A DNA stretch of 64,000 nucleotides from Acidithiobacillus caldus ATCC 51756 (GTDB taxonomy: Bacteria; Pseudomonadota; Gammaproteobacteria; Acidithiobacillales; Acidithiobacillaceae). The notes beneath the pieces were generated by a model, which was not told the origin of the DNA, did not search any database, and was given only the letters and a program-made list of their open reading frames with translations. The stretch covers positions 999,549-1,063,548 of the forward strand of contig NZ_CP005986.1 in the NCBI RefSeq assembly GCF_000175575.2. The letters are read 5' to 3'. The position numbers and the translations under genes are program-made. Numbering within the stretch: position 1 is the stretch's first letter; every line of letters starts with the position of its first letter. Positions 25,113 to 42,831 of the stretch are shown piece after piece.

Positions 25113-25680
25113 TTAGTGCTATTCGTAGCGCTTCTAGGGTTGGTAGTCGCGCGTGATGGGCAACAACCTCTTCGTTCTCTGGCTCACGCCCTAGAACGTC
25201 CAGAAAAGCATTGCACACGTCCTCTCGAGAGAGACGATGGTCAGCGCTTCCCTCGTGTGAGAGCTTAACTGACATTTCGCGAACATATTCCGAAAGCTTT
25301 AAGATTATCTCTTGCAAAGAGGTACAGATAGGAATCAAGCCAATCACGTTCTGGCGATGAGCAGCTTGTTCCATGCCGATCGATCGAATCGTACGTTCCA
25401 GTCGGCTCGCACGGCCAAAGCGTCCCCAAAGCCAATGATTCGATTTCCGAACTTGATTCACCAGTGATTTTAGACCCTGGACTTTATCGAATTGCTTACA
25501 CTCAGTCGATAAGGCCAACTGGGTAACAACTTCTTCTTTGCTGTAGCCAACGGCTAATCTCCCCAAATAATACGCGAGGCCATGTTCATCCGGGTCGCGT
25601 CCGAGCAAGCAGCGATAGGCCTCTACGACAAACGTTTCACTATCCAGAATAAACAGCTCGTAGATGTTTTCAATCGCCAT
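25113..25680 (-). pseudogene. DUF4214-domain protein, 3' end displaced by IS5
   Basis: ATG at 25680, overlapping the methyltransferase stop by 11 bp. Residues about 12-62 (SETFVVEAYRCLLGRDPDEH, then GLAYYLGRLAVGYSKEEVV) form one DUF4214 repeat. A second begins at VCNAFLDVLGREPENEEVVA. As sequenced the protein ends ...ALRKL after running a few codons into the IS5 terminal repeat. The native last codons lie at 23959-23862 and read MESREYRSKAPGEYASKLLD to a TAG, giving 221 residues. DUF4214 modules occur fused to or beside glycosyl- and methyltransferases in surface polysaccharide loci. Function unknown. The truncated form may still fold. Confidence 0.82.
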
Positions 25681-26485: not shown

Positions 26486-26495
26486 CGACTAACGC

Positions 26496-27170
26496 TCATT
26501 GGAGGGCCTGATAGGCATCAATAGCCCCGTCCACGGTGTCAAAATGTTGCAATCTGCCGTTCTCCAGGAGTGCTGCCCGGTCGCAGTGGGCACGAATGAT
26601 GTCCACACTGTGGGAGACGATGATCATGGCGCGGTCACCGCGGTTTTCGAACAGATCCCGATTGCACTTTTCTGTAAAGCGATGATCCCCGACGGCCATC
26701 ACTTCGTCAATGAGATAGCAATCGAACTCTATGGCCATGGAGATGGCGAAGGCGAGTCTCGCCTGCATACCGTGGGAGTAGGACTTTACCGGTTCCCCAA
26801 TATATGGACCAAGTTCGGCAAAGTCTTTCACGTACTCCAACATCTGGTGATAGTCAACGCCATAAACCCGGGCGATGAGTCGGGTGTTGTCCTTGCCCGT
26901 CAGGCTGCCGATAAACGCGCCACCAAAGGCCAAGGGCCAGGACAAGGACATCCCCCGCACAATCTCTCCGCTATTGGCCGACTCTGAACCGCTGATGATC
27001 CGCACCAGGGTCGATTTACCCGCACCATTACGTCCCAGGATGCCCAGTTTCTCTCCGGGGCGCAAGGTAAACGATATTCCGTCCAGAATCACACGCTCGT
27101 TGCGCCCATGGTTTATGGGGTAGCGTTTGACGATGTTGCACACCTCCAGATTCCCTTTAGCCGCCGCCAT
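26496..27170 (-). CDS. kpsT: ABC transporter ATP-binding protein, KpsT-like polysaccharide export
   Basis: 224 residues. Walker A is GILGRNGAGKSTLVRIISG, the signature is SYSHGMQARLAFAISMAI, Walker B is FDCYLIDEVMAVGDH, and the switch His is in IIVSHSVDII. The length fits KpsT, which lacks the C-terminal glycan-binding domain of Wzt. So the exporter should recognise a common lipid terminus rather than the chain end. The start overlaps the permease stop. It powers translocation of lipid-linked polysaccharide across the inner membrane with KpsM. Confidence 0.93.
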   Translation of the reverse strand: MAAAKGNLEVCNIVKRYPINHGRNERVILDGISFTLRPGEKLGILGRNGAGKSTLVRIISGSESANSGEIVRGMSLSWPLAFGGAFIGSLTGKDNTRLIARVYGVDYHQMLEYVKDFAELGPYIGEPVKSYSHGMQARLAFAISMAIEFDCYLIDEVMAVGDHRFTEKCNRDLFENRGDRAMIIVSHSVDIIRAHCDRAALLENGRLQHFDTVDGAIDAYQALQ

Positions 27171-27978
27171 GCACCTTGACCCGCTTGATGGCTATCTCCG
27201 TCAGTGTGTATCCCAACAAGGTCATCGCAATGATGGCCGCGATGGTGTACGGAATATGGTAATACGTCGGCATCTGACTACCAAAGTAACCGTGATGAAA
27301 GTACTCCACCGCATCGATGAGGGGGAAATAGAGCAAATAATGACGATAGGGCTCCGGTACCAAGTACATAGGTATAAAAACCCCAGAGAAAGGCAGCATG
27401 AGGTAGAGGATGATGTGAGAGGTTTTCTCGATGGTTTCCGATAGTTCCGCCAGCGCCGCCATGATGAGCACGAAGGCAAAGGAAAACCAGATTACCAACA
27501 GGTAACCCATACCAAAGGCATACCAATTGGCCGGTAGATGGGTAACCCCGATAAAGGTAAAGATGGGATAGAGCACCATGAATGCGGCCGCACCACTGGC
27601 AAAGGTGAGGATGATGCGCGCGTAAATGATGTCCATTGGGCGAATGAGCTGGTGGTGGAGTAAGGATCGATTGATGTCGATGGCTTTAGTCACTCGGCCC
27701 GTGCCGTTACGCCAGAACAGTAGGGTGGGGTAACTCACCGCCAGATACTCCGCTGGGCTGATACCGTTGATGTAATCGGCCTCGATGTAGGAAAAGATGA
27801 TCATCACACCGATGACGAACATGGCCGGCTCGGCAATGATCCAGAGTACGCCCAAGCCTTCGCGACCATACATGGTAATGGTTTCGCGCATCACCAATGC
27901 CCAAATGACGCGACGTTGGATGGCGAACTGTTTCCACAAGGATGCCTTGTGCTCGCGCCCTTGCAGCTCAGCGCTCAT
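27157..27978 (-). CDS. kpsM: ABC-2 polysaccharide export permease, KpsM-like
   Basis: 273 residues from ATG at 27978, which has AAGGAG just upstream; an in-frame TTG at 27999 is less likely. The N-terminal cytoplasmic helix is QRRVIWALVMRETITMYG. Six membrane segments can be read, including LGVLWIIAEPAMFVIGVMII, ASGAAAFMVLYPIFTFIGV, YLLVIWFSFAFVLIMAAL and HIILYLMLPFSGVFIPMYLV. This is the ABC2_membrane pattern of KpsM/Wzm. It overlaps kpsE by 11 bp and kpsT by 14 bp, forming a coupled kpsE-kpsM-kpsT unit. Confidence 0.93.
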   Translation of the reverse strand: MSAELQGREHKASLWKQFAIQRRVIWALVMRETITMYGREGLGVLWIIAEPAMFVIGVMIIFSYIEADYINGISPAEYLAVSYPTLLFWRNGTGRVTKAIDINRSLLHHQLIRPMDIIYARIILTFASGAAAFMVLYPIFTFIGVTHLPANWYAFGMGYLLVIWFSFAFVLIMAALAELSETIEKTSHIILYLMLPFSGVFIPMYLVPEPYRHYLLYFPLIDAVEYFHHGYFGSQMPTYYHIPYTIAAIIAMTLLGYTLTEIAIKRVKVHGGG

Positions 27979-29086
27979 GGTGCTCCTTGATACCGCCAAT
28001 GACTACGACCAGCACGCCCCAAATCATGAGGGATATCACCAGAGTCGCCAAGATCCCCTCCAGGCGCCGTGGTAACTGTGGAGCATCCGGCGCGTTGGGT
28101 GCACTGATGGTTTCCAGGTACAACTCCTGTTTTTGCGCCGTGATTCGCGCCTGTTCCAGGGCCGTCACCGCCGCTTCCAAGAGCTTCTGGGCGATGGCCT
28201 GATTCACCTGCAGGGTTTCATATTCTGTATCTTTGCTCGCCAACGATTGATGATCGCCGGTGATCTGGGCGTTGGCCGCTGCAATCTGGGTCTCCAGGGC
28301 CTGCACACCAGAGCGCAGGACGGGAATATTGGGGTTCTGCGGGGCGTGCGCAAGAATGGCCGCGAGCTGGGTCTTTTCCTGAATCAGCTGGTCCTGCAGC
28401 TTGTTTACCAGAGCCAGCTGCAACTGGGACTGCTGCAGTGGGCTGATTACCTGCTGGCCATTGCGGTAGCGAGTGAGGGCGACGGTGGCGGCGGCCAGGT
28501 TGGCCCGGGCTTGCTCGACGTCCTGACGGGCAAACTTGACCGCCTCCTCCCGGGCCCCGGCGTTGAGTTGGTTGACGATGGCTTGCCCCTTGGCCAGGAG
28601 GAAGCGGTTCATTTCCTGGGCCGCCTGGGGACTGTAGGCCTTGACCTTGAGGGTGCTGATGCCGCTGGTGGGATCCACGGAATCCGTGGTCATGCTCTGG
28701 TAGTAGCGCCACAGCCGCACCTGGTTTTTGAAGGGATGAAAGAGCCCACCGTAGCGGTCCAGCCAATCCACCCCCTGGGAATAGAGTTTGGCCAGATCAA
28801 AACGGCGATTGAGCGTCATCATGGCATCCCAGGAGGAGATATAGGCCATGATGGTTTGGGATGCGCTGCTGGAATAGCTTCCCTCCAGCCCGCTGATGAG
28901 GCTGGCCAGCCCGCCAGAACTGCTGAAATGCTCACCGGGGCTGTAGACCACATAGCGCGATTCGCTGATGTAGACGGGCGAGGCGATGAAGCCAAAGTAC
29001 AAAATGGACAGACCCGTGGGGACGACGACCACCCAGACGAACAATTTGCTCAGGTTGCGAAACCAGTTCCAAATCGAGGACAGCAA
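27968..29086 (-). CDS. kpsE: Capsule polysaccharide export inner-membrane protein, KpsE-like
   Basis: 372 residues. The start codon is probably TTG at 29086, with AAGGAAAA 8 nt upstream. One N-terminal membrane helix (LFVWVVVVPTGLSILYFGFI) is followed by a Wzz-like periplasmic domain (ISESRYVVYSPG), then long coiled coils (about residues 180-320, rich in Gln/Ala/Leu). A C-terminal membrane helix is ATLVISLMIWGVLVVVI. This is the PCP-3 (KpsE/CtrB/BexC) layout. The protein bridges the KpsMT exporter and the KpsD outer-membrane channel encoded divergently. Confidence 0.9.
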   Translation of the reverse strand: MLSSIWNWFRNLSKLFVWVVVVPTGLSILYFGFIASPVYISESRYVVYSPGEHFSSSGGLASLISGLEGSYSSSASQTIMAYISSWDAMMTLNRRFDLAKLYSQGVDWLDRYGGLFHPFKNQVRLWRYYQSMTTDSVDPTSGISTLKVKAYSPQAAQEMNRFLLAKGQAIVNQLNAGAREEAVKFARQDVEQARANLAAATVALTRYRNGQQVISPLQQSQLQLALVNKLQDQLIQEKTQLAAILAHAPQNPNIPVLRSGVQALETQIAAANAQITGDHQSLASKDTEYETLQVNQAIAQKLLEAAVTALEQARITAQKQELYLETISAPNAPDAPQLPRRLEGILATLVISLMIWGVLVVVIGGIKEHHER

Positions 29087-29097
29087 ACGGCTTTTCC

Positions 29098-30570
29098 TTA
29101 TGGTGTGGGGGCCGAGGCCTCGACCCTCCCGTAAATGTCCTCAAAGCGGACGATGTCGTCCTCACCCAGGTAGGCGCCACTTTGCACTTCGATGAGCACC
29201 AAGGGGATGACCCCCGGATTCTCCAGGCGATGGGCCGTGCCGGCGGCGATGAAGGTGGACTCGTTGGTCATTACCAGGCGTTCATCCTTCCCGACAACCA
29301 CCTTAGCCGTACCCGATACCACGATCCAGTGTTCGCTGCGGTGGTAGTGCATCTGCAAAGAAAGCTTTTCTCTGGGCTTGACCAGGATCCGTTTGATTTT
29401 GAAGTGTTCGCCTTCCTCGAGGACCGTATACGTGCCCCAAGGCCGATGCACGGTGATGTGGGTATCCGCCAGAGGGTGGCTGGACCCCTTCAGGCGCTCC
29501 ACGATCCGCTTGACGTCCTGGTCTCGATCGCGGCGGGCGATGAGCAGGGCATCGGGTGTATCCACCACCAAAAGGTCCTCCACCCCCAGTAGCGCGGTCA
29601 AGCGCTCGGGGCTGTACACCACGCACTGGCGGCTGTCTTCCCACAGCAGCTCACCATGGCCGCGGTTGCCCTCGGAATCAGCGGGCAGGAGCTCACCCAT
29701 GGCTTCCCAGGCACCCAGGTCGTTCCAGTCGAAAGTGGCGGGGACGACGGCGACCCGGTCGTGGGATTCCATCACGGCGTAGTCGATGGAGATATCCGGA
29801 CTCTGGGAAAAGGCCTTGCCCAGCCACCAGGTATCGCCGTTGGCCTGTCCTTGCGCCCAGGCGGCAAGGGTGGCCTCGTGGACGGCGGGAGCATGTTCGG
29901 ACATGGCCTGCAGAAGGTTTTTGGCAGTAAAGCAGAAAATCCCAGCATTCCAGAGGTACTGACCACCGGCTAGGTAGGCCTCTGCCGTCTCCCGATTGGG
30001 TTTTTCCAGAAAACGGTCCACCACAAAGCCGCCTTCCAGCGCCGCGCCTTGCGCGATATACCCATAACCCGTCTCGGGACGGGAAGGGACGACCCCAAAG
30101 GTGACCAAGTAGCCTTGTTGCGCAAGGCGTGCCGCCTTGCCCACGGCTGCACAGAAACCTGCCGCATCCTCGATGAGGTGATCGCTGGGCAAGACCAACA
30201 GTACTGCTTCCGGGCCCACTTGATCCTGTGCCCAGAGCGCCGCCGCCGCGATGGCTGCAGCCGTGTTGCGGGCTTTGGGCTCCAGTAGGTACTCCACGCG
30301 GTCCTCGTGATCCGCGCCCAGGGCCGACGCTATGGTGTCCCGTGATAGAAAATAGTAATCCCGATTGGTGACCATGAGTAGCCGGCCGCCGTGGGGTAGT
30401 GCCTGCACGCGCTTGAGGGTTTTGCCGAGGAGATTCTCGCCATCCGGAAGAGGAATGAAGGGCTTGGGTTGTTGAGTGCGCGACAGGGGCCACAGACGAC
30501 TGCCGGTACCTCCCGACAGTATGACGGGGACGACCTGCGGCGAATGGCAATCTGACCCAGAAAAATGCAT
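29098..30570 (-). CDS. manC: Bifunctional mannose-1-phosphate guanylyltransferase / mannose-6-phosphate isomerase
   Basis: 490 residues from ATG at 30570 (MHFSGSDCHSPQ); an earlier in-frame ATG at 30627 would overlap the divergent promoter region. The nucleotidyltransferase part has PVILSGGTGSRLWPLSRTQQ, LLVLPSDHLIED, FLEKPNRETAEAYL and YAVMESHDRVAVVPATFDWN. The C-terminal cupin isomerase has VHRPWGTYTVLEEGEHFKIK and LSLQMHYHRSEHWIVVSG. It makes GDP-mannose, so the capsule probably contains mannose or a GDP-mannose-derived sugar. It is the first gene of the minus-strand operon leading into kpsEMT. Confidence 0.94.
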   Translation of the reverse strand: MHFSGSDCHSPQVVPVILSGGTGSRLWPLSRTQQPKPFIPLPDGENLLGKTLKRVQALPHGGRLLMVTNRDYYFLSRDTIASALGADHEDRVEYLLEPKARNTAAAIAAAALWAQDQVGPEAVLLVLPSDHLIEDAAGFCAAVGKAARLAQQGYLVTFGVVPSRPETGYGYIAQGAALEGGFVVDRFLEKPNRETAEAYLAGGQYLWNAGIFCFTAKNLLQAMSEHAPAVHEATLAAWAQGQANGDTWWLGKAFSQSPDISIDYAVMESHDRVAVVPATFDWNDLGAWEAMGELLPADSEGNRGHGELLWEDSRQCVVYSPERLTALLGVEDLLVVDTPDALLIARRDRDQDVKRIVERLKGSSHPLADTHITVHRPWGTYTVLEEGEHFKIKRILVKPREKLSLQMHYHRSEHWIVVSGTAKVVVGKDERLVMTNESTFIAAGTAHRLENPGVIPLVLIEVQSGAYLGEDDIVRFEDIYGRVEASAPTP

Positions 30571-30647
30571 TGTGAAGTACCCGATCCGGCCATGTGCCTT
30601 GTAATGTCTGGGGTAGGACGGTACCATCGGCCATAAAATTGGTCAAT
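30571..30647. promoter_or_regulatory. Divergent promoter region between manC and kpsD-PKS operons
   Basis: Only 77 bp separate the proposed manC and kpsD starts, so both operon promoters must lie here or inside the 5' coding ends. This would link transcription of GDP-mannose supply and inner-membrane export to the outer-membrane channel, PKS and AOS genes. No clear consensus -35/-10 pair is visible by eye. Confidence 0.4.
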
Positions 30648-31862
30648 ATGCAAGACACTCTACGAACACCTACCGCCAAGGATAGACTGCGCTTGTCGAA
30701 CATCAAGATCTGCTTCATCGCTCTCGGATTCGCACCCCTGTTGCTTAGCGGTTGCAGTGCTTACCTGCCGTACTCTGGTCCCCGCGCCGCACGCGTCGAC
30801 AACGTCGAGCACAATCAAGAGTTGCGGGGCATTCGCCTGGTGGATGTGGATTATGGCCTTGCGCATCTGCTGCGTACCCGGATGGATAGTCCGGATATGG
30901 AGCTCCTGCAGGACTTCTCCAATCCCACGCCTTCTCTCTACACCGTGGGTCCTGGCGATGTGCTGGAGGTGCACATCTGGGAAGCGCCTCCGGCCATGCT
31001 CTTCGCTACAGGCTTGACGTCCACGAGCACGCCTTCGGGTTCCATGATGACCACCATTCCACCGCAGATGGTCAATGCCGGTGGCACTATTTTTGTACCC
31101 TTTGCTGGCCGTGTCCCCTGCGCGGGCAAGAGCACACAGGAAATCGCCGAAGAGATTCGCAGGGATCTCCAGGGTAAAGCCCATGACCCGCAGGTGGTGG
31201 TGAGCTTGGTCCGCAATCGGGCGCAAAGTATCTCGGTGGTGGGTAACGTCAAGGACAGCAAACAAGTACCCCTTGAGCCAGGTGGTGTGAGTATCCTCCA
31301 GGCCTTGGCGGCGGCGGGTGGCGTGGTCCAGCCCGTGAGTAAGGTGACCATACAGATATCCCGGGCCGGCCGGGTGCTGCGCCTGCCGCTGGAAAAGGTG
31401 ATCAGTGACCCCGCAGCCAATATCTCCCTGCGCGCGGGGGATGTGGTCACGGCGCTCTACCGGCCTTTGCATGTGACGGTGATGGGTGCCACCCGCGAGA
31501 CCAAGGAGATCGACTTTGAGGCCACCGGTATCAGTCTTGCCCGGGCGCTGGCGCGGGCGGGCGGGCTCAATGGTAATGAGGCCGATGCGCGGGCGGTGTA
31601 CGTGTTTCGCATGGAGCCCCCGGAGCTGCTGCCCGACCTCGCCCGAAGAGGCAATCTGGTGGATGGCAAGGTCCCGGTGGTTTTTCGCTTCAACTTCAGC
31701 AATCCAGCCACCCTCTTTGCGGCTCAGCAATTTCCGGTCCAGAACGGGGATCTCATCTACGTGGCCAGTGCTCCGGTCACCGATTTGCAAAAGTTCCTGG
31801 GCCTGATCGTGCAGATCGTTTATCCCATTCAGGGCCTCACCACTGCTGGCGTCATCAAATAA
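30648..31862 (+). CDS. kpsD: Outer-membrane polysaccharide export lipoprotein, KpsD/Wza-like
   Basis: 404 residues from ATG at 30648. The signal peptide ends in the lipobox LLLSGC (Cys after IKICFIALGFAPLLLSG). The Poly_export domain starts at YTVGPGDVLEVHIWEAP and includes GGTIFVPFAGRVPCAGKSTQ. SLBB domains follow: VVGNVKDSKQVPLEPGGVSI with LQALAAAGG, and VMGATRETKEIDFEATGISL with ARALARAGGLNG. It should form the periplasmic/outer-membrane part of the capsule channel. Its stop is 4 bp before the PKS start codon, which places export and lipid synthesis in one transcription unit. Confidence 0.9.
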   Translation: MQDTLRTPTAKDRLRLSNIKICFIALGFAPLLLSGCSAYLPYSGPRAARVDNVEHNQELRGIRLVDVDYGLAHLLRTRMDSPDMELLQDFSNPTPSLYTVGPGDVLEVHIWEAPPAMLFATGLTSTSTPSGSMMTTIPPQMVNAGGTIFVPFAGRVPCAGKSTQEIAEEIRRDLQGKAHDPQVVVSLVRNRAQSISVVGNVKDSKQVPLEPGGVSILQALAAAGGVVQPVSKVTIQISRAGRVLRLPLEKVISDPAANISLRAGDVVTALYRPLHVTVMGATRETKEIDFEATGISLARALARAGGLNGNEADARAVYVFRMEPPELLPDLARRGNLVDGKVPVVFRFNFSNPATLFAAQQFPVQNGDLIYVASAPVTDLQKFLGLIVQIVYPIQGLTTAGVIK

Positions 31863-31866
31863 ATCC

Positions 31867-34800
31867 ATGCCGCGTTTGCCATCCATTGCTATCATTGGGT
31901 ACGCGACACGCTTACCCAAAACCTCCGACCCGCATTTTTGGGAAGATCTCCGCCAGGGTAAAAACCTACTCTCACAGGTGGAGCCCGACCGTTGGGCGCA
32001 ATCCGCCTTTTGGCACCCGCGGCGCAGCCACCCGGGGACGTCCGTCACCTTCGCGGCGGGGAGTCTGGGCGACGTAGCGGGTTTTGATGCGGGCTTCTTT
32101 CGGATCTCGCCCCGTGAGGCGGTGGCCATGGACCCGCAGCAGCGCCTCCTGCTGGAAATGTCCTGGGAGGCGCTGGAGCGGGCTGGCTTGCGGCCCCGAC
32201 GCCTGCGTGGCAGCAATACGGGAGTTTTTGTGGGGCTGGCGAGCACAGATTACGCCTACCGCAACGCCGATGATTTTGCCGCCATCGGCCCGAATTCTGC
32301 GACGGGAGCGACGGCCAGCATTGCCGCCAACCGCATTTCCTTTGTATACGATTGGCGTGGGCCAAGCTTTGTGGTGGACACCGCATGTTCTTCGGGCATG
32401 GTGGCTTTTCACCTTGCCTGTATGGCCCTGGCGCGCGGCGACTGCGATCTGGCGCTGGCCGGGGCCATCAATCTGCACCTCCATCCCTATGGCTTCCTGA
32501 TTTTTTCCAAGGCCTCGATGCTCTCGCCTCAAGGCTTGAGCCGTCCTTTTGCAGCGGGTGCAGACGGTTATGTGCGTTCTGAAGGCGGCGGCGTTTTCGT
32601 CCTGAAACCCTTGGATCGGGCCCGCCGCGACGGCGACAGGATACTTGCGGTGGTGGTGGCCACGGGCATGAATACCGACGGCAACAAAAGTGGCATTACC
32701 GTGCCGCGGGCAGAAACGCAAGCGGCCTTGCTGGAGAAGGTCTACGCCCAGGCTGGTCTCGCGCCGGAAGATCTGCATTACCTGGAGGCCCATGGTACCG
32801 GTACGGCGGTGGGAGATCCCATCGAACTCGAAGCTATTGGTCTGGCCCTCGCGCGCCATCGCCGCCAGGCGCTGCCCGTGGGCTCCGTCAAGAGCAATCT
32901 TGGGCATTTGGAGACCGCCTCGGCCGTTCCGGGCTTGCTCAAGGCCATCCACTGCCTGCGGGAGCGGGAGATTCCACCCAGCATTGGCGCTGAGGAAATC
33001 AACCCCAAGTTGCCCTTGGATCGTTATCCCTTGGACATCGTTCGGGAACGGCGATCCTTACCCCAGGATGGGGTGCTGCACATCGGCGTCAATTCCTTTG
33101 GTTTCGGCGGCGCCAATGCGCACGCCTTGCTGCAGAGTCCGCCCCGGTGGCGGCGGCCTCAGCGAGTTGTTTGGAACCCGTCGCCCACGCCTACAGATGG
33201 CTGGCGTCCTCTCCTGCTGACGGGGGCGGAGGCCCAGGGCTTGCGGGCTTTGGCGGCGGAGCTTGCCGACTTTCTGGAGACCTTGAGTCGCCGGGACTTC
33301 GAGCGCGCTATTTACCAGCAGAATTTCCGGCGCGAGGCTTTGGGCTTTGGTGTTGCCTTCTGGTTCCGCAACCGCGATGACCTTGGCCTGCAACTGCGCC
33401 AGTTTGCCGATGGAGCGGAGGTGCCGGTCGTGGTGCGTCGCCCCGATTGGCGGGATGCGCGGGCTGCGGTACGCGGTGTGGTCCTCATCTATTCCGGAAA
33501 CGGCTGTCAGTGGCCGGGCATGGGGCGCGCACTCCTGTCTCATCCCGTCGCCCGCGCGGTCGTAGAGGAAATCGACACCACCTTTGCTCCCCTTGCGGGC
33601 TATCGGCTGGTGGACGAGCTGCTCCGCGAAGATTCTCTCGATCTGTACGATTCCACTGCCCGGGCACAACCGGCACTTTTTGCCTTGCAGGTGGCGCAGA
33701 CGCAATTGGCAGTGTCGTTCGGCGCGGAACCGTTAGCCGTCGTGGGCCACAGTGTAGGCGAGGTCGCGGCAGCATGGGCTTGCGGCGCGCTGACTCTCGC
33801 CGAAGCAGCGCGGGTAATTTACTACCGTAGCATTGCCCAGGAGCGCACCCGTGGCTTGGGGCAGATGACTGCCGTGGCCGTCTCTCCCGAGGTGCTGCCG
33901 GACCTGCTGCGGGCGGAGGGGTTGGACTCCGAGCTGCATCTGGCCGCCATCAACAGTCCGCGGGGGGTGACGGTGGTGGGGGCCGCGCAGGCCCTGGATC
34001 GACTGGAGCGTGTGCTCAAGACCCAAGGTATCGCCTGCAAGCGCCTGGGCTTGGACTACCCCTTTCACGGTCCCGCCATGGATTCCCTACGCGACGAACT
34101 GCGAAACCATCTCGCCAGCCTGCAGCCTAGAGCCGAGCGTATTCCGTTTTTGTCCACCGTGACGGGAAAATCGCTGCCTGGAACGTCCCTGGACGGCGAG
34201 TACTGGTGGCACAACGTCCGGGAACCAGTGCGCTTTGCGGAGGCGGCAGAGCGGAGTCTGGAGCAATCGCCCTATTTCTTGGAGTTGGGCGGTCATCCAG
34301 TGCTCCGTGGCTATCTGCGCGAGATTTTCGAACATCGGCAGTGCGAAGGACACGTCGTTGGCGCCTTGCGGCGCGGGCAAGGCGACGCAGTAGCGGCGCT
34401 GCGTCAGGCCGTGGGCGAGCTCTGGGCGGCAGGTCTCGATAAGGATCTGCAACGCTATTATCCCCAAGAGTTGCCACCGCTGGATCTGCCACCGTATCCC
34501 TGGCAGCGACAACGCTTTTGGCAGGAGCCCACCGCGGAATCCTATCGCTTGCTTCAGCGCGACCCCGTCCACGAACTCCTGGGCCATGCGCTTGCCCAGC
34601 ATCCCCACACCTGGGAGCAAGTGCTGGATCTTGCCACGCAGTCCTGGCTCCGGGACCATCGCGTGGGAGACAGCGTGCTCCTGGCGGGCGCCGCATTCCT
34701 GGAAATCGTTCTCGCTGCGGGTCATGAAATTTTTCCCGAGAGCGAGGGGCTCTGTGTCGAGAACTTCGAGATTCTGGCTCCTTTGGTCCTGGAGGAAGAG

Positions 34801-37800
34801 CACAGCCGTATCTTGCGCACCCACTGGGCCGAGGGGTTGTTGCACCTGCGCTCCCGGGCCCAGATGGGCGATGGCTGGGTGGAGCATGTGCGTGCGGAGA
34901 TCCGCCCCTTGGGGCACCAGCGTCCGCAGGCCTGGCCAAGCCTCACAGGTGGTGTGGACGTGGTGGACGCGCAGACCCATTACGTCCGCACCGCGCAACT
35001 CGGTTTGCACTATGGGCCGGCCTTCCGCACGGTGCGGGCGGGGAGCCGCCTGGGCGACCGGCTCGACGGTGCGTTGGAACGCCCGATGGACCAGTCTACT
35101 GGCCCCTTTTACCTGGATCCCAGGGTGCTGGACGGAGCTTTTCAGCTCTTCGTCGATCTTTTGGCCGACGACACGCAGCGCGAGGCCCTTCCCTATGTCC
35201 CGGTACGTATCGATCGCGTGGACTGGTGGGGAAGCGCGGAGCCTTTATCCTCGGCGCGACTGCATCTCTTGCGGCGTTCTCCCCACTCAGTGCTGGCGGA
35301 CCTGCAGATGGTGAATACCAGCGGGCTGCTCTGCGTCCGCTGTGTGGGTTTACGCCTGCAGCAGGCCCGGCTGGCCGTCGAGCACGGACGACCACTCCCC
35401 CGTTATTTTGTCTCTCACCTGGAGCGCGTTCGCGCCCCCGATGCGCCCAGTGCGCTGGATGCGTCGGCACTGCACGAGGCTTTGGAGCATTTCTGGCGGT
35501 CCGATGCTCTCCTGTCACGTTGGCGTGAGGAATTCCTTCCCCTCCTGCAAAGCTATCTGGAGATGGGTGACGATCCGAACCGGACGCGTCTTTGGCGCAC
35601 GCTTTTGGAGGACTACCCAGAGCACCTGGCATGGACGTTGGCCGTCGGGCGCGGCGCCAGCAAGGCTTGCGGCCTCGAAGTGGAAGCCGCTGGTTCAGTT
35701 TTCCTGGAGGATTGGCAAGCGCGGGATCTACAGTTATGGGCGCCGCGGATAGCGGCCTTTTTGGCCCAAACCCTAACGCAGCAGTTGGGCGAGGGATTCG
35801 CCTTTGACGATCTTGCGGTGGCGGAGTTCTGCGATGGCGGGTGGACGCTCCTGCCGCCCTTGGGCGCGGGGCATCCCCACTTGTCCCTCTGGGGGTTGCT
35901 GTCGGAGGCCTTGGAGGATGAGGCGTCGTGGCCCAGGGCGTTACTGGGTGAGATTCCGCAGGGTTTCCCCAAGCTGGATCTGCTCTGGGCGCAGCTGGCA
36001 AGCGAGCCGAGCGACCCCGGCGGCTTTCTCGATCGGATTGCCCCACTGCTGCGCCCGGGAGCTCTTCTGCTGTGCCTGGGTGTGGAGGCCGGATGGCTTG
36101 CTAAATGTTCAGGTATGGGGATAGCTCCGAGCGCCATGGATGCCTTGGGCGAATTGGCCCAGACCCGGGCGTGGACGGTGCATAGTCTTGGTGAGGGCTT
36201 GGGGCCGCGCATAATGATCCTCCAGGCTCCCGCGGCTGAGCGAGGGCAGACGCAGGACGATCGGCGGCGCATTCTGTACCTAGGGCGAGGGCAGGGTGCC
36301 TTGTTGTCGGCGCTGCAACGTCGCAGCCGGGTTCTGGTGGCCGAGTCGGGTGATTTGATCGATACCTCAGATGTCCCGTCGGCTGAAATCTGGATCCATG
36401 CGCCTGTTCTCGAATGCAGAACGGGATCCTGGACGGCGCATCTCGCGACGCAAACGATGCGCCTGCGGGACATCGCTCGCGTGTGCCGGAAGCAGGTTGG
36501 TGGATCGCGTCTCGACCTGCTGCTTCCCGGCGCCTTGCGCCCGCGAGGCAGACCTGAAGACCTGGCGGCGGCCGCCCTGGCCGCTTTTGCGCGCAGTCTC
36601 ATCAACGAGTGGTCCGACCTCAGCCTACGCATTCTGGATCTCGATCTGGAACAGCCGGCAGCGGTCGAGGCGGCGCTTGCGGCCCTGCTTGACCCTGAGC
36701 CTTCGCGCCGGGAGCTCACTTGGGACGATGCAGGACGGTGTTGGATTCCGCGTACGACGGTCTATGGGTACTCCGAACCGGTGCAGGGTGATGGAGCACG
36801 CTTGATCACGACTCAGTCGGGGCAGTTGAAGTATTTGGCCTGGGAGACTTGCCCCGCCGACGCCCAATTGGCCTCTGAAAGTGTCGAGGTGGAGGTGGAG
36901 GCAGCGGGCCTCAACTTCCGGGACGTCATGTACGCTCTGGGTTTGCTCGGAGACGAGGCGCTGGAAGCGGGCTTTGCTGGCCCTGGCCTTGGTCTTGAGT
37001 TTGCCGGCACCATTCGCCGCGTTGGTGCCAACGTAACGGATTTTCGCCCTGGAGATCGGGTCTTGGGCTTTGGTCCCTACAGTCTGGCCAGCCGGGTGGT
37101 CACGCCGACCTTCGCCGTTGCCCCGCTTCCCGACGGTCTGGATATGGTGGCGGCGGCGGGCTTGCCCGTCGCCTTTTTCACGGCCTGGTATGCCCTGAAA
37201 ACCCTGGGACGGCTCCAAGCCGGTGAGCGGGTGCTCGTCCACGGCGGAACGGGTGCGGTGGGCATGGCCGCCATCCAGATTGCCGAACTCCTTGGGGCGG
37301 AAATCTGGGCAACGGCGGGCTCCCCAGCCAAGCGCGATTTGTTGCGTTTGCTGGGCGTTGACCACGTCCACGACTCCCGCACTTTGGACTTTGCCGACGC
37401 GATCCTTGCGGAGACGTCGGGAGAGGGCGTGGATGTGGTGCTCAACAGCCTCGCCGGGCTGGCGATGGACCAGAGCTTGCGCCTGCTCCGCCCCTTCGGC
37501 CGCTTTCTGGAGCTCGGAAAACGCGATTTTTATGGTAATACCCGTTTGGGTTTGCGGCCCATGCGCCAGAATCTGCAATATTTTGGGATCGACGCGGATC
37601 AACTTTTGGCACAGTGTCCAGAGCGCGCCCGCGAGATTTTTAGCGAATGTCTTGCGCACTTTCACCGTGGTGAGTTACGTCCCTTACCGGCGTCCCGCTT
37701 CCCCAGTTTTGCCGTGCAGGACGCCTTCCGGTTTATGCAGCGCTCCCGACAGCTGGGAAAAATCGTCATCGATACGCGCGGGCCGCACCTGCCGCAACGC

Positions 37801-39006
37801 TCGCCTTTACGACCCGCGTCGCAACCCCTGCGGCTGGATCCCGAGGCGATCTATCTGGTCACCGGTGGAAATCGCGGTCTGGGCTGGCGCAGCGCACGAC
37901 GCTTGATCGAACGTGGTGCACGTAAGCTGGCGCTCTTGAGTCGCAGCGGCGTACTTGCGCCGGAGGCCGGCGAATTTCTCGCGACCAATGCGCTCGAGGA
38001 TTTGGAATACCGTAGTCTTGCCGTAGATGTGACCGATGCCTCGGCCCTGGAGAACTGCCTGCAGGACCTGGAGGCTTGGGGACGCATCGGTGGGATCGTA
38101 CATGCCGCCGCCGTGATCGAAGACCAACTTGCCGAGGATTTGGACGCGGAGACGCTGCGCCGGGTGCTGGCCCCCAAAGTTGAGGGAGCCTGGGTGCTTC
38201 ACCGTTGGAGTCTGCAGCGGGAGCCCGACTTTTTTGTGCTCCTTTCTTCTATCTCCAATCTCCTGGGTAATATCGGACAGGGCGCCTATCTCGCCGCCAA
38301 CGGCTTTTTGGAGGCGCTGGCCGCGTTGCGCCGGTCCCAAGGCATGCCGGCGACGGTATTGCAGTTGGGTCCAGTTTCTGACGCGGGCTTTCTGACGCAG
38401 AACAATGAAACGCTGTCGCTCTTGGAGCGACGCTTGGGAGGCAGCGCCATTCGTGCCGAACAGGCTTTGGACGCGCTGGAGTTGGCCATCCACCGGGATA
38501 TTCCAGTGCTTGCCTTAGCCGATGTGCGCTGGAATGGGTTGCGTGCCGCGCTCCCGTATGTGGATTCAGCCCGTTTTGTAGCGCTGGATACGGATATCGA
38601 CGGCCATCAGGGACATTCCGATACGGATCTTGATTGGCGTGCCCGGCTCCATGGGATGGCCGCCGATGCCGCTCAACAGGAACTTGCCCAATGGATCGCT
38701 GAGGAAGTCGCCCAGATCTTGCGTCTCCACGCTGCCGACCTCGACCAGCGTAAAAAGCTCAGCGAATTGGGCTTTGACTCCCTCATGGGCATGGAACTGG
38801 CCCTTGCCCTGGAGGAGCGCCTCGGCATGCGTATTCCCAGTTTCATTCTCAGTGAAGCGCCCACGATCCATAGCCTGGCGAGTCGACTCTGGCACAGCCT
38901 GCAGGAGCAGCATCCTGCAGACGTGGAGGGTCAGGCGAAGGAGGCCCTCGCGCAAACCCACGGCGCGCTCGAGGAATATCGACGCACTGCAGCGCAGGTC
39001 CGTTGA
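31867..39006 (+). CDS. Type I polyketide synthase, single highly reducing module KS-AT-DH-(psiMT)-ER-KR-ACP
   Basis: 2,379 residues. KS (about 4-425) has Cys174 in DTACSSGMV, His309 in EAHGTGT and His347 in KSNLGHLE. AT (about 540-840) has Ser629 in GHSVGE and YPFHGPAMD, which suggests malonyl specificity. DH (about 895-1185) keeps His931 and DPRVLDGAFQ, but HxxxGxxxxP is altered (DHRVGDSVLLAG). About 1,190-1,640 look like an inactive methyltransferase and the KR structural half. ER (about 1,640-1,975) has VLVHGGTGAVGMAAIQIAE. KR has TGGNRGLGWRSA and Tyr2141. ACP carries Ser2305 in GFDSLMGME. No thioesterase is present. Iterative use would give a saturated or partly reduced chain, which the adjacent oxoamine synthase could offload. 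Confidence 0.95.
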   Translation: MPRLPSIAIIGYATRLPKTSDPHFWEDLRQGKNLLSQVEPDRWAQSAFWHPRRSHPGTSVTFAAGSLGDVAGFDAGFFRISPREAVAMDPQQRLLLEMSWEALERAGLRPRRLRGSNTGVFVGLASTDYAYRNADDFAAIGPNSATGATASIAANRISFVYDWRGPSFVVDTACSSGMVAFHLACMALARGDCDLALAGAINLHLHPYGFLIFSKASMLSPQGLSRPFAAGADGYVRSEGGGVFVLKPLDRARRDGDRILAVVVATGMNTDGNKSGITVPRAETQAALLEKVYAQAGLAPEDLHYLEAHGTGTAVGDPIELEAIGLALARHRRQALPVGSVKSNLGHLETASAVPGLLKAIHCLREREIPPSIGAEEINPKLPLDRYPLDIVRERRSLPQDGVLHIGVNSFGFGGANAHALLQSPPRWRRPQRVVWNPSPTPTDGWRPLLLTGAEAQGLRALAAELADFLETLSRRDFERAIYQQNFRREALGFGVAFWFRNRDDLGLQLRQFADGAEVPVVVRRPDWRDARAAVRGVVLIYSGNGCQWPGMGRALLSHPVARAVVEEIDTTFAPLAGYRLVDELLREDSLDLYDSTARAQPALFALQVAQTQLAVSFGAEPLAVVGHSVGEVAAAWACGALTLAEAARVIYYRSIAQERTRGLGQMTAVAVSPEVLPDLLRAEGLDSELHLAAINSPRGVTVVGAAQALDRLERVLKTQGIACKRLGLDYPFHGPAMDSLRDELRNHLASLQPRAERIPFLSTVTGKSLPGTSLDGEYWWHNVREPVRFAEAAERSLEQSPYFLELGGHPVLRGYLREIFEHRQCEGHVVGALRRGQGDAVAALRQAVGELWAAGLDKDLQRYYPQELPPLDLPPYPWQRQRFWQEPTAESYRLLQRDPVHELLGHALAQHPHTWEQVLDLATQSWLRDHRVGDSVLLAGAAFLEIVLAAGHEIFPESEGLCVENFEILAPLVLEEEHSRILRTHWAEGLLHLRSRAQMGDGWVEHVRAEIRPLGHQRPQAWPSLTGGVDVVDAQTHYVRTAQLGLHYGPAFRTVRAGSRLGDRLDGALERPMDQSTGPFYLDPRVLDGAFQLFVDLLADDTQREALPYVPVRIDRVDWWGSAEPLSSARLHLLRRSPHSVLADLQMVNTSGLLCVRCVGLRLQQARLAVEHGRPLPRYFVSHLERVRAPDAPSALDASALHEALEHFWRSDALLSRWREEFLPLLQSYLEMGDDPNRTRLWRTLLEDYPEHLAWTLAVGRGASKACGLEVEAAGSVFLEDWQARDLQLWAPRIAAFLAQTLTQQLGEGFAFDDLAVAEFCDGGWTLLPPLGAGHPHLSLWGLLSEALEDEASWPRALLGEIPQGFPKLDLLWAQLASEPSDPGGFLDRIAPLLRPGALLLCLGVEAGWLAKCSGMGIAPSAMDALGELAQTRAWTVHSLGEGLGPRIMILQAPAAERGQTQDDRRRILYLGRGQGALLSALQRRSRVLVAESGDLIDTSDVPSAEIWIHAPVLECRTGSWTAHLATQTMRLRDIARVCRKQVGGSRLDLLLPGALRPRGRPEDLAAAALAAFARSLINEWSDLSLRILDLDLEQPAAVEAALAALLDPEPSRRELTWDDAGRCWIPRTTVYGYSEPVQGDGARLITTQSGQLKYLAWETCPADAQLASESVEVEVEAAGLNFRDVMYALGLLGDEALEAGFAGPGLGLEFAGTIRRVGANVTDFRPGDRVLGFGPYSLASRVVTPTFAVAPLPDGLDMVAAAGLPVAFFTAWYALKTLGRLQAGERVLVHGGTGAVGMAAIQIAELLGAEIWATAGSPAKRDLLRLLGVDHVHDSRTLDFADAILAETSGEGVDVVLNSLAGLAMDQSLRLLRPFGRFLELGKRDFYGNTRLGLRPMRQNLQYFGIDADQLLAQCPERAREIFSECLAHFHRGELRPLPASRFPSFAVQDAFRFMQRSRQLGKIVIDTRGPHLPQRSPLRPASQPLRLDPEAIYLVTGGNRGLGWRSARRLIERGARKLALLSRSGVLAPEAGEFLATNALEDLEYRSLAVDVTDASALENCLQDLEAWGRIGGIVHAAAVIEDQLAEDLDAETLRRVLAPKVEGAWVLHRWSLQREPDFFVLLSSISNLLGNIGQGAYLAANGFLEALAALRRSQGMPATVLQLGPVSDAGFLTQNNETLSLLERRLGGSAIRAEQALDALELAIHRDIPVLALADVRWNGLRAALPYVDSARFVALDTDIDGHQGHSDTDLDWRARLHGMAADAAQQELAQWIAEEVAQILRLHAADLDQRKKLSELGFDSLMGMELALALEERLGMRIPSFILSEAPTIHSLASRLWHSLQEQHPADVEGQAKEALAQTHGALEEYRRTAAQVR

Positions 39007-39007
39007 G

Positions 39008-40339
39008 ATGGCTTCCTCATCGCGATTGAGTTCCGAGGAGAAGCACTCGCTCCTGCAGCGAGGCAAGGCCTTGCTCCAGGGTCGGGTAGCCCCCGAAGAT
39101 CCGGAGAACGATAATAATCCACTGGGGATTGCCGAGGACTTGGTGGACTTTCGCAAGCATCCGGGTTACCTGCAGGTTGCGCGGCTGCGGGAGGGGGGAC
39201 GTCTCCTGGGGGTACAGAGCCCTTTCTTTCGCGTGCACGATGGGATAGCCGGGGCGCATAGCCGCATCGAGGGGCGCGAGGTCGTCAACTATGCGAGCTA
39301 TAACTACCTGGATCTCGCCGGACATCCGGCGGTGATGAACGCCGCTCAGGCCGCCGTCGCGGAGTTTGGCACGACGGTATCGGCCAGTCGTATTGTGTCC
39401 GGCGAGCGTCCCTTTCACCGTCGGCTCGAGAAGGCTCTGGCAGAGCACTACGGGGTAGAGGATGCCGTTGCCTTTGTCAGTGGTCACGCTACCAATGTAA
39501 GCCTTCTGGGCCAGCTGCTCGGCCCGCGGGATGTACTGCTCCACGATGAATATGCGCACAACAGCATCGTCGTGGGTGCTCGCCTTTCCGGCGCGCAGCG
39601 CCTGCCTTTTCCTCATAACGATCTGGCACAGCTGGAGCATCTGCTGCGTACCCACCGTCGCCAGGCGGAGCGCTGCATAATTGCCGTCGAAGGGATCTAC
39701 AGCATGGACGGGGATTACCCAGATCTCCCACGTCTGTTGGAGATCAAGACTCGTTACCGTTCTTGGCTCATGGTGGACGAGGCCCACAGTTTGGGGGTGC
39801 TGGGTGCAACCGGCCGAGGCGTGGCGGAGCATTTCCACGTCGATGCTCGCGACGTGGACATCTGGATGGGAACGCTGAGCAAGACCTTAGCCAGCTGCGG
39901 AGGCTACGTTGCCGGAAGCGCGGCGTTGGTGGAGCAAATTCGCTATCTGGCTCCTGGGTTTTTGTATAGTGTCGGCCTCGCTCCGCCCCTAGCTGCCGCA
40001 GCGGAGGCCGCCATGGCTGTACTCCACCGTGAACCGCAGCGGGTCCGAGTGCTCCACGACAACGGTGCCTACTTTCGAGAGGGCCTGCAGAGATTGGGCC
40101 TCGATACGGGTAGCGCCGTAGGCTATGCGGTTATTCCGTGGATCGTAGGAAGCTCCCTCAAGGCCGTGCGCTACTCCGCGCAACTTCTGGAGCGAAACAT
40201 TAACGTCCAGCCCATACTATACCCCGCCGTCCCCGAGCAACGAGCCCGACTGCGCTTTTTTGTGAGTAGCGCCCACAGCCGCGGAGATTTGGACCAGACC
40301 ATCGCGGCCATCCAGGATATCCAGAACGCGATGTCCTGA
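39008..40339 (+). CDS. PLP-dependent alpha-oxoamine synthase (AONS/serine palmitoyltransferase-like)
   Basis: 443 residues from ATG 1 bp after the PKS stop, about 50-60 residues longer at the N-terminus than BioF. Family signatures are NYASYNYLDLAGHP, GTTVSASRIVSGERPFHRRL, FVSGHATNVSLLGQLLGP, DEYAHNSIVVGARLSGAQ, MVDEAHSLGVLGATGRGVAE (PLP Asp) and MGTLSKTLASCGGYVAG with the PLP Lys292. These enzymes condense an acyl thioester with an amino acid, with loss of CO2. Location behind a PKS that lacks a thioesterase suggests it takes the chain from the PKS ACP and makes a 2-amino-3-ketone. A true BioF role is unlikely since bioA lies elsewhere (58 kb) and the context differs. Amino-acid substrate unknown. 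Confidence 0.88.
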   Translation: MASSSRLSSEEKHSLLQRGKALLQGRVAPEDPENDNNPLGIAEDLVDFRKHPGYLQVARLREGGRLLGVQSPFFRVHDGIAGAHSRIEGREVVNYASYNYLDLAGHPAVMNAAQAAVAEFGTTVSASRIVSGERPFHRRLEKALAEHYGVEDAVAFVSGHATNVSLLGQLLGPRDVLLHDEYAHNSIVVGARLSGAQRLPFPHNDLAQLEHLLRTHRRQAERCIIAVEGIYSMDGDYPDLPRLLEIKTRYRSWLMVDEAHSLGVLGATGRGVAEHFHVDARDVDIWMGTLSKTLASCGGYVAGSAALVEQIRYLAPGFLYSVGLAPPLAAAAEAAMAVLHREPQRVRVLHDNGAYFREGLQRLGLDTGSAVGYAVIPWIVGSSLKAVRYSAQLLERNINVQPILYPAVPEQRARLRFFVSSAHSRGDLDQTIAAIQDIQNAMS

Positions 40340-40369
40340 GGTGTCCTGGCAATAATAGACACTATCGTT

Positions 40370-40576
40370 TCAAGCGGCTGATCTCCAGTAGGACTGGGCG
40401 AAGACAGCCGGCGCCAAGTAACCAAGCCGTGAGTGGCGACGCTGGCGGTTGTAAAAAATCTCGATGTACTCCCGGATGGCCGCCTCGGCCTCTGTACGGG
40501 TTGCAAAGGGGCGATGATGCACCATTTCGTTCTTGAGGTTCCCCCAGAAGGGCGTGCTCCCCATCATAAAGGGCAT
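40370..40576 (-). pseudogene. IS3-family transposase C-terminal remnant
   Basis: About 55 meaningful codons give NLKNEMVHHRPFATRTEAEA and YIEIFYNRQRRHSRLGYLAP, the conserved end of IS3-family (IS150-like) OrfB. The catalytic parts are missing. Its 5' side is fused directly to a fragment of an hsdR-like gene. It lies 30 bp after the oxoamine synthase stop and marks the end of the capsule/PKS region. Confidence 0.8.
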
Positions 40577-40682
40577 CGTTGGGGCTGATGGTGCTGCCTT
40601 GGGGTGGCGTGTAGAGCCAGCCTCGAGATGCCAGGTCCGTGCAGATTTCGGTTTCTAGGGCAAATTCGTTGTGGATGGCCAT
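40563..40682 (-). pseudogene. Type I restriction HsdR N-terminal fragment
   Basis: From ATG at 40682 the frame reads MAIHNEFALETEICTDLASR followed by GWLYTPPQG and SPNDALYD. This matches the typical start of type I restriction endonuclease R subunits (HNE..FE.EIC..LA..GWLY....A..YD.A.ALFP). After NDALYD the sequence changes into the IS3 remnant. Only about 40 codons remain, so it is dead. It starts 2 bp after the PIN toxin stop, an arrangement seen where toxin-antitoxin genes are embedded in restriction operons. Confidence 0.6.
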
Positions 40683-40684
40683 AG

Positions 40685-41095
40685 TCAGGATTCCCAGGCG
40701 ATGCAATCGACGAGAGGGGAATAGGGAACCAGGGCGGCGTCCGTGGTGAGTAAGCGGGAAGGCAGGGTCACGGCTTGGGCAACCAGAAGCCGGTCGAAGG
40801 GGTCCTTGTGGTGCCACGGAAGGCTGGCCAAAAGAAAGGTGTGGATGCTTTCCATGGGGAGTTCCGTAAAGCCCGTTTCCTGAGCCAATTGATAAATATC
40901 TTGGGGCTCGAAGTCAAAATCGGGGCGGCGGAGGGAAGATTTGATGGCAATCTCCCAGAGGCTGACGGCACTGAAAAGTATCGTGTGGTTGGGATCCGTC
41001 AGGATGGTCTGGGTGGTCTTGGGTAGGCGGTCTGGGGACAGCAGGCTGGCTAGCAGGACGTTGGTGTCCAGCAGCAGACGAGATGAGGGCATCAA
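40685..41095 (-). CDS. PIN-domain toxin (VapC-like)
   Basis: 136 residues (ATG at 41095 or 41092). PIN signature: RLLLDTNVLLASLLSPDRLP (first Asp), SAVSLWEIAIKSSL (Glu), WHHKDPFDRLLVAQAV (DPFDRLL, second Asp) and LLTTDAALVPY (third Asp). It fits PIN proteins paired with Phd antitoxins, which cleave tRNA or other RNA. ATG overlaps the antitoxin stop, so translation is coupled. All four acidic residues are present, so the toxin is probably functional. Confidence 0.9.
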   Translation of the reverse strand: MMPSSRLLLDTNVLLASLLSPDRLPKTTQTILTDPNHTILFSAVSLWEIAIKSSLRRPDFDFEPQDIYQLAQETGFTELPMESIHTFLLASLPWHHKDPFDRLLVAQAVTLPSRLLTTDAALVPYSPLVDCIAWES

Positions 41096-41334
41096 TCCGC
41101 AGATCCGGAAAACATGCGCAGAATTTCTTCCTGAGCCATTTGGTCCAAATCTTTGGGTAGGTGAAAACGTCCGGCACCCAAGCCCAACGTGCGGGGCTTG
41201 GTGGGTGTAGCAAGGGACACCAACCGGGCTACGGGTTTGCCGGAGCGGGCAATGATGATTTCCTCCCCAGCCGCCGCCTGATCCACATAGCGGGAGAGCT
41301 GGGTTTTGGCTTCGTGGATATTGACAATGGTCAC
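41092..41334 (-). CDS. Phd/YefM-family antitoxin
   Basis: About 80 residues from GTG at 41334; an in-frame ATG at 41385 would add 17 atypical residues. The N-terminus TIVNIHEAKTQLSRYVDQAA and GEEIIIARSGKPVARLV are diagnostic for Phd antitoxins. The C-terminal LGLGAGRFHLPKDLDQMAQE is the usual toxin-binding tail of Phd partners of PIN toxins (G...G.f..P.D.d). Paired with the downstream PIN toxin. Confidence 0.9.
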   Translation of the reverse strand: MTIVNIHEAKTQLSRYVDQAAAGEEIIIARSGKPVARLVSLATPTKPRTLGLGAGRFHLPKDLDQMAQEEILRMFSGSAD

Positions 41335-41417
41335 GGTGGCGGTCTCCGATAGCGTAACTTGGTCTAGTTTAGTCAACCAGGGCAATAGTTGGCAATCAGA
41401 CTTCCAGCAACTCTGTC

Positions 41418-41655
41418 ATGCCACCGCTACCGCAGAGGAACTGGCGGTGCTACCTCAGCGTTGAGGCGGCCTGCACTTTGCTCGACGGAACGGCGGGCAC
41501 GAGCTACCTTTTGCTGCAGGTAATCCCGGTAGCCTTGCTCAGCCCGCTGCTGGGCAATGTATTCCCGCAGCACCTCAGAGGCAGGTCGGTAGGCAGCATC
41601 GGCGGCGGCAAAAAACTCAGAGCTCTGGCTCCAGTTCCGAAGTGAAGCCAGAATG
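41418..41655 (-). pseudogene. Antitoxin-like fragment (decayed toxin-antitoxin remnant)
   Basis: A minus-strand open stretch without a good start reads LRNWSQSSEFFAAADAAYRP, EVLREYIAQQRAEQGYRDYL and QQKVARARRSVEQSAGRLNA, then stops with TAG near 41430. The composition and the VLREYI...YLxxKVxxAR pattern resemble the C-terminal part of ParD/CopG-like antitoxins. An ATG (MTELLEV) follows a few bases later but stops after seven codons, as if the toxin gene were deleted. Low certainty. Confidence 0.35.
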
Positions 41656-41788: not shown

Positions 41789-42246
41789 TTACGCAACCAA
41801 CTGACTTTCGGCGCTGGTGACCTGCTCTGCGGCAATGAGTCCTTGGCGATTGTCCATGAGCACATGCCCAAGATAGGCCAAGCGGGAAGCTTCGCCGGGC
41901 GCCTTTTTGTAGAGCCGAGCATCGGGGTCGGTCACCGAGGCGTGCGTCGTATTACGGCGCGACTGGCCGCGGAAATCGGAACCATCGCCCTCACGGTCCT
42001 CAGGATCTTTCGGCTGGAAGGATTTCTGCGAAGCCCAAGCTTCCAGCAGGGTGCCATCGACGGAGAAATGCTCTTCGGAAAGCAGATCACGATAGCGGGC
42101 CTGTTCCAACACGGAGCGGAAGCATTCCCGCACTGTCCCTTTATCCAGCAGCCGATCCCGATGCTTGCTGAAGACCGTGGACACCCAGACGTCGTCGTCC
42201 ATTCCCAAACCCACAAACCAACGGAACAGCAGGTGTTCCGTTGGTG
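41789..42246 (-). pseudogene. IS5/IS1182-like transposase fragment
   Basis: The frame reads EHLLFRWFVGLGMDDDVWV from about 42,240, then STVFSKHRDRLL, HFSVDGTLLEAWASQKSF (first catalytic Asp) and RQGLIAAEQVTSAESQLVA. This is the N-terminal and central part of a transposase of the IS1182/IS5 type (FRWFVGLxxDDxVWDHSTFSKNRxRLL). The C-terminus with the last catalytic residue is missing and the 5' side is cut by an IS256 end at 42,248. Confidence 0.75.
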
Positions 42247-42247
42247 A

Positions 42248-42831
42248 GCTATGGTCAAGATTGGTGTATGAGCATTTGCTAACACGATTCAGGCGGCGTC
42301 CTGTTGGGGATCCTGCCGGGTTTCGTTGGCAGGAAGTCCATCGATAAATATCACCCTGGCAAAGAGCTCGCGCAGTCTTTCCGGATGCTGAATCCCGCGC
42401 CAGTGTCTCTCTGCCTGCTGGATGAGCTTGTAGCTCAGGCCAAGGAAGCTGTTGCGCGAGACGCAGTTCTTGGTACGGCTGCTGCGATGCCGTACGGTGG
42501 CGAAGGTCGATTCGATGGCGTTGCTGCTGCGGATATGCCGCCAGTGCTCTGCCGGGAAGTCGAAGAAGGTCAGCAGCACGTCCCGGTCCTTCTCGAGTTT
42601 TTCGACCGCTCTGGGATATTTGGCCTGGTAGTCCCGCACGAAGGCTTGCCAGCTCTTCTACGCCGCTTCTCGGGTATCGGCCATCCAGATGGCCTGCAAA
42701 GCGGCCTTGGCCCTCCCCTGGAGCCGCTTCGGTAGCTCGTTGAGGATATTGGCAAAACCAAGGAAAAGAACGCCGTCTGGCGGTCGCTTACTTAGCAAAT
42801 GCTGATACACCCATCTTGACCATAGCTCGGT
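42248..42831 (-). pseudogene. Decayed IS256 copy bounded by two inverted ends of the same type
   Basis: The transposase 3' part (about 42289-42755) reads ANILNELPKRLQGRAKAALQ, a TAG at 42658-42660, then DYQAKYPRAVEKLEKDRDVL, IRSSNAIESTFATVRHRSSR and GIQHPERLRELFARVIF. It is closely related to the intact IS256 at 22 kb. The left boundary begins GAGCTATGGTCAAGATTGG at 42248. The right boundary, inward from 42831, is GAGCTATGGTCAAGATGGG. Both resemble the 3' terminal end, not one of each, and the 5' part of the gene is absent. Confidence 0.8.

Follow-up and report, generated by a model that had tools for sequence, protein, structure and literature searches.

Defence genes inside type I restriction-modification operons have already been published, DarTG2 and TgvAB among them. 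The DarTG2 genes of enteropathogenic E. coli (EPEC) separate hsdS from hsdR in a type I system, and the report describing them calls this site a potential recombination hotspot (PMC12255303). TgvAB is embedded in the VPI-2 type I cluster of Vibrio cholerae, and one strain is described in which an IS256 insertion disrupts the hsdS gene of that cluster (PMC11411939). PrrC is encoded within the type IC locus EcoprrI (PMC12707154). For Acidithiobacillus caldus itself, ISRAcaTY.4 is reported to contain a restriction system and a genomic island to carry VapC/Phd (PMC3826726); either may be the locus described here. Among 30 plasmids from the species, 29 are reported to bear a toxin–antitoxin (TA) system (PMC12375680).

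Organization of the block

We analysed a 64,000-nucleotide stretch of the genome of the acidophilic sulfur bacterium A. caldus ATCC 51756, referred to as the window. Plasmid-like contig C3 of the same assembly matches two A. caldus plasmids at 93–95%, over 34% and 32% of the 20 kb searched. At approximately 1.04 Mb on contig C1 (2,777,717 bp) of the four-contig assembly, its minus strand carries a Phd antitoxin gene, a PIN toxin gene and an hsdR fragment, in this order. The pair and the truncated hsdR appear to be what is left of a defence operon of an already known kind, and because defence genes within type I operons are on record, we regard the locus as a decayed example of that arrangement. 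Its likeness to DarTG2 is that of a TA pair between hsdS and hsdR (PMC12255303), but DarTG2 acts by DNA ADP-ribosylation and belongs to a complete operon, whereas the window holds Phd-VapC and a relic operon. TgvAB, likewise a defence module of two genes within a type I cluster, consists of type IV modification-dependent restriction genes rather than a TA pair. PrrC shares the placement of a gene for an RNA-cleaving enzyme inside a type I locus, but it is a single anticodon nuclease gene, whose product is activated upon inhibition of the type I enzyme. PrrC is not known to have a separate antitoxin gene. Ordinary Phd-VapC type II modules have domain content, gene order, overlap and conserved acidic residues in common with the window pair, which differs from them in standing before an hsdR relic. 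The features of the block and its flanks are as follows.

40337–40550, minus strand: 3′ remnant of an IS3-family transposase gene, recognized by similarity to another genomic copy
40551–40682, minus strand: hsdR 5′ fragment, 44 codons from ATG, truncated (tblastn, profile, IS3 junction)
40685–41092, minus strand: PIN-domain (VapC-type) toxin gene, open, PF01850 over the Pfam cut-off
41092–41334, minus strand: Phd/YefM-type antitoxin gene, open, PF02604 over the Pfam cut-off
41356–41369, no strand assigned: inverted repeat AACT-N6-AGTT, 5′ of the antitoxin gene, found by eye
41430–41621, minus strand: candidate C-terminal piece of a second antitoxin, weak plasmid matches
41808–42234, minus strand: fragment from the interior of an IS5/IS1182-type element with many genomic copies
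42244–42828, minus strand: IS256-type remnant, apparently deleted internally, multi-copy in the genome

Pfam assigned the toxin to PF01850 (E = 6.8e-9) and the antitoxin to PF02604 (E = 2.5e-12). With both frames open and both above their cut-offs, the PIN/Phd pair proposed in the preliminary description is confirmed, as is the intact toxin gene just before an HsdR N-terminus: its frame is open, and its stop codon lies 2 bp from the hsdR ATG. Conserved acidic residues in the PIN domain characterize VapC-type toxins, and D9, E47, D100 and D118 are invariant across all five aligned homologues. The toxin start overlaps the antitoxin stop (TGATG), and a Phd/YefM-domain gene upstream of and overlapping a toxin gene is what defines an antitoxin of this type. 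The antitoxin is 63–75% identical to three homologues, comparison with which points to GTG as its start codon. Many plasmid homologues carry a VapC annotation with an adjoining Phd.

The inverted repeat upstream of the pair is a possible operator; by eye, its pattern is present in two of four other loci (L032, L036), with the left half only in L037, and is absent from L035. The antitoxin fragment that had also been proposed is a weak candidate: its region, 41430–41621, gave three plasmid matches (42–44% identity, E = 3e-3 to 8e-3), of which one is annotated as an antitoxin, and no antitoxin match in Pfam.

Identity of the hsdR fragment

Searched by tblastn, the first 41 residues of the fragment gave matches in eight of 72,556 plasmid records. 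The best of these (57.5% identity over 40 residues, E = 3e-5) falls at the 5′ end of a gene that is annotated as DEAD/DEAH helicase-family and immediately follows hsdM and hsdS. A profile of ten HsdR N-termini, built with the window sequence left out, recovered the window place in its own genome (E = 1.2e-8), one of its rows (from the relative G003) having originally been found with the window query. Used on its own against a set of eight stretches, the Formivibrio HsdR matched the fragment over residues 1–39 (38% identity, E = 1.8e-4). In G003, a similar N-terminus is followed by a frame change and then by an 882-residue body that PADLOC models recognize as a type I restriction enzyme.

The preliminary description had read about 40 codons here as an HsdR N-terminus, which the plasmid hsdR match and the N-terminus profile bear out for the 44 codons present, and it had named a profile search as the test that could overturn this. 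Our ten-row profile matches the fragment; ready-made libraries miss it. The 41 residues had no match in Pfam, NCBIfam, PADLOC or PDB sequences, and in the G003 relative the Pfam HSDR_N match covers only profile positions 107–195. These library results are what could speak for a chance open frame unrelated to HsdR, a reading that we reject as scarcely credible since it is refuted by the tblastn matches in family genomes and plasmids, by the N-terminus profile and by the Formivibrio HsdR match.

The fragment thus has its N-terminal sequence in common with HsdR proteins; with 44 codons left, and the nuclease motif and motor domains gone, it is a fragment and not a working HsdR. PF04313 found no HsdR anywhere in the own genome. 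Nor did the full-length Formivibrio HsdR find anything there at E = 0.01, a weak test because this query missed the known fragment as well. Among 369 genomes of the class searched with the 41 residues, only the own genome was recovered (E = 1e-5). In the alignment of HsdR N-termini, the window and loci L032, L033 and L034 carry extra residues (TPP-G-T-SP) after GWLY that are absent from the nine others aligned.

The arrangement in relatives

Within the family Acidithiobacillaceae, the 41-residue query found four places in three of 29 genomes (tblastn, E = 0.01), and at all four an open TA pair stands just upstream of a broken hsdR. The pair is Phd-VapC in the window and in L032; in L033 a BrnT-BrnA pair ends 49 bp before hsdR, and in L034 (the G003 locus) a Phd-PIN_3 pair overlaps hsdR by ATGA. 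The hsdR copies are broken in four different ways. Judged by similarity, the window keeps residues 1–39, L032 residues 1–60 plus a stretch matching 288–324 of the G003 body, and L033 residues 1–58 and 723–1031, with an ORF that by eye has an IS3-transposase-like start beginning between the two parts; L034 retains almost the full length, split into three pieces whose frames differ. The four loci were all found from one end of hsdR, so the pattern is only suggestive.

L032 belongs to G021, a genome of another genus, and has the same Phd-PIN-hsdR order. One 826-bp blastn alignment spans all three genes (window 40549–41374 against L032 10094–9272, 67% identity), with the toxin 61% and the hsdR start 74% identical. 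Since the order recurs in another genus as one alignment, the adjacency of the TA pair to hsdR is probably ancestral and older than the window locus, which supports the earlier suggestion of a link between the pair and the restriction system. Synonymous divergence between the window and L032 is 0.64 for hsdR (43 codons), 1.5 for PIN and 3.6 for Phd, the last near saturation. As hsdR is less diverged than the two TA genes, the parts may not have one common history, and the TA cassette could have been exchanged; the hsdR fragment compared is short.

The wider HsdR profile also matched places in G009, G014 and G010 and a third place in G021. Three of these four were read (L121, L120 and L119), the G010 place (L189) being left out; all three have intact hsdR frames and no TA pair before hsdR. 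What precedes hsdR there is a 250-residue protein of unknown kind in L121, a Fic-like gene in L120 and an hsdS-like gene in L119 (by eye). Three genomes in which the 41-residue hsdR query finds nothing, G025, G017 and G010, also carry the same Phd-VapC lineage; in G017 and G010 the pair lies near capsule-like genes (by eye). The complete hsdMS-vapBC-hsdR locus that the preliminary description had proposed looking for in relatives was found in none of the genomes searched.

Outside the family, a distant DNA search with the block gave 16 plasmid records, and among the 10 listed the matches were short and to TA genes. One scan of genome_contigs gave six loci. The viral_contigs set yielded a single weak match; the ORFs of that contig look phage-like by eye, and no hsdR was noticed among them.

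Boundaries and neighbourhood

The IS3 remnant is 86% identical over 214 bp to G000:C1:234371, and the ORF at 40370–40576 matches rve_2 (Pfam, E = 5.3e-15) and the IS3 model NF033516 (NCBIfam, E = 2.3e-16). IS3 similarity stops at 40550 and hsdR similarity begins at 40549, so the two abut with an overlap of at most 2 bp. At the far end of the remnant, IS3 similarity sets in at the stop codon of an aminotransferase gene (40337–40339), and the aminotransferase product aligns with that of its G017 relative nearly to its end. Beyond the TA pair, the IS5/IS1182 piece is 80–93% identical to copies elsewhere in the genome (NF033581, E = 1.2e-28), and the IS256 remnant is 93% identical over 42244–42753, with a terminal-repeat match at 42792–42828 (NF033543, E = 5.2e-16).

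The Formivibrio HsdM and HsdS queries had no match in the window or in two G021 stretches (E = 1e-3), and the single Methylase_S match in the own genome adjoins another hsdM some 820 kb away. With hsdM and hsdS not found beside the block, the full type I operon is only inferred. The idea that mobile elements erased the system is supported for hsdR, which is truncated at the junction with the IS3 remnant. The own genome does keep an hsdM-hsdS pair of another type (C1, approximately 1,861,300–1,865,200; L194 9302–13197, minus strand; PADLOC MTase_I and Specificity_I) and shows no HSDR_N match.

A former position of the system after the PKS operon, the other part of the earlier proposal, found no backing in relatives: none of the 11 with the same aminotransferase gene (59–70% identical) has a TA pair or hsdR in the downstream flank examined, up to 1.5 kb (about 0.14 kb in L200). 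Against this result, G017 (L036) carries a same-lineage Phd-VapC pair, without hsdR, about 6.3 kb downstream of its aminotransferase gene, which leans toward a PKS link.

In L198 (G006), a BrnT/BrnA-like pair (by eye) at about 2839–3433 separates the PKS-linked aminotransferase gene from the gene after it, which resembles the one directly following the aminotransferase gene in G017 and G011. In the window itself, 25102–40339 contains ManC-, KpsE-, KpsM- and KpsT-like ORFs (by eye) divergent from large PKS and aminotransferase genes. Taken with the capsule-like genes into which relatives continue, these ORFs suggest a capsule-lipid cluster of the rhizobial rkp kind rather than a secondary-metabolite PKS.

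Genes preceding hsdR in a wider survey

The HSDR_N survey of the family gave 69 places: 51 long-frame loci were read, the G003 place is L034, and 17 were left out. Upstream genes in these 51 loci and in 30 loci from the phylum were simple ORF calls made by eye, many of them spurious, and we therefore rely only on those checked with Pfam or tblastn.

In L099, L101 and L102, a Phd-like antitoxin and a ParE toxin stand 3 bp before an intact hsdR (1025 residues as called). The three toxins are 99–100% identical, so these loci count as one case and not three; the L099 antitoxin scored 28.4 bits, slightly below the Pfam cut-off of 29.8. L101 and L102 also have a Gp49/HTH_37 pair at least 621 bp upstream, and L103 has toxin matches in two frames. 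In the remaining loci of the 51, none of the TA proteins used as queries was found within 1 kb upstream of hsdR. At L125, L126 and L128, in three genomes, a long HSDR_N frame stands alone, with Phd and ParE matches following about 60 bp downstream.

Other proteins occupy the same site: L084 has a Fic protein, and L092 and likewise L098 a solo PIN protein of 295 residues (Pfam-checked in L092). The PIN gene (L092:5117–6001 in G002; L098:5097–5981, minus strand, in G010) has 4-bp overlaps, as called, with hsdR and with the neighbour on its hsdS side, and no antitoxin gene was seen adjoining it in either locus. By analogy, it is possibly a guard nuclease in the manner of PrrC.

HsdR N-termini of this kind occur in 56 of 398 genomes of the phylum sample (E = 1e-8). 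Ten upstream genes from the 30 phylum loci were run through Pfam, where HipA exceeded its cut-off twice and HTH_3, Fic, GmrSD, Mrr, DUF4268 and DUF4357 once each; one gene had a YafQ match below the cut-off and one had no match. By eye, hsdS stands directly before hsdR in seven of the 30.

One could see in this a standing plug-in site before hsdR for type II TA cassettes in Acidithiobacillaceae, used by four toxin types (VapC, PIN_3, ParE and BrnT), with the cassette outliving hsdR in one HsdR group (at four of four places). TA modules may then lock or guard type I systems and afterwards remain as fossils marking lost ones. We consider this generalization doubtful and offer it tentatively.

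Origin of the locus

We conclude, with a probability of roughly 80%, that the block descends from a type I restriction-modification operon, now a relic, in which a Phd-VapC/PIN pair stood directly upstream of hsdR. The pair would have been co-transcribed with hsdR, and hsdM and hsdS would once have stood upstream and been lost in an IS-rich rearrangement. Presumably the pair is still a functional TA module: its toxin would cleave RNA when free of the antitoxin, and the toxin–antitoxin complex would repress its own promoter. Such a module would penalise its own loss and thus outlive hsdR; as judged from sequence, persistence of the pair by addiction is plausible.

The adjacency might instead be an accident of an IS-rich region, with a free-roaming Phd-VapC module landing beside an already dead piece of hsdR. 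Many IS copies surround the block, the same lineage occurs without an hsdR match in three family genomes, two of them (G017 and G010) with the pair near capsule-like genes by eye, and hsdR is less diverged than the TA genes, as such a history would allow. Gene order and the tight toxin-hsdR spacing are nevertheless common to G021 within one alignment, and the other two places found with the hsdR query also carry upstream TA pairs. Given that single blastn alignment, we judge a late, independent insertion beside the relic less likely, and consider the accidental origin improbable overall.

Slightly more improbable again is a guard role, present or past, in which the pair would watch over the restriction system as PrrC does over EcoprrI: a phage inhibiting the type I enzyme would thereby free the toxin, and the cell would shut down. 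The position before hsdR, the tight junctions (2 bp in the window, an ATGA overlap in G003) and the encoding of PrrC within a type IC locus (PMC12707154) are all consistent with such a role, but contact of Phd or VapC with Hsd proteins is hypothetical, the pair occurs without an hsdR match too, and nothing was found in the window for it still to guard.

Taken as the relic of a type I operon, the window locus alone is an ordinary case of defence genes embedded in such an operon and since decayed, and one in which a TA pair outlasted the restriction gene with which it travelled. The intact Phd-ParE-hsdR versions in the family provide a setting in which the addiction or guard idea can be tested.
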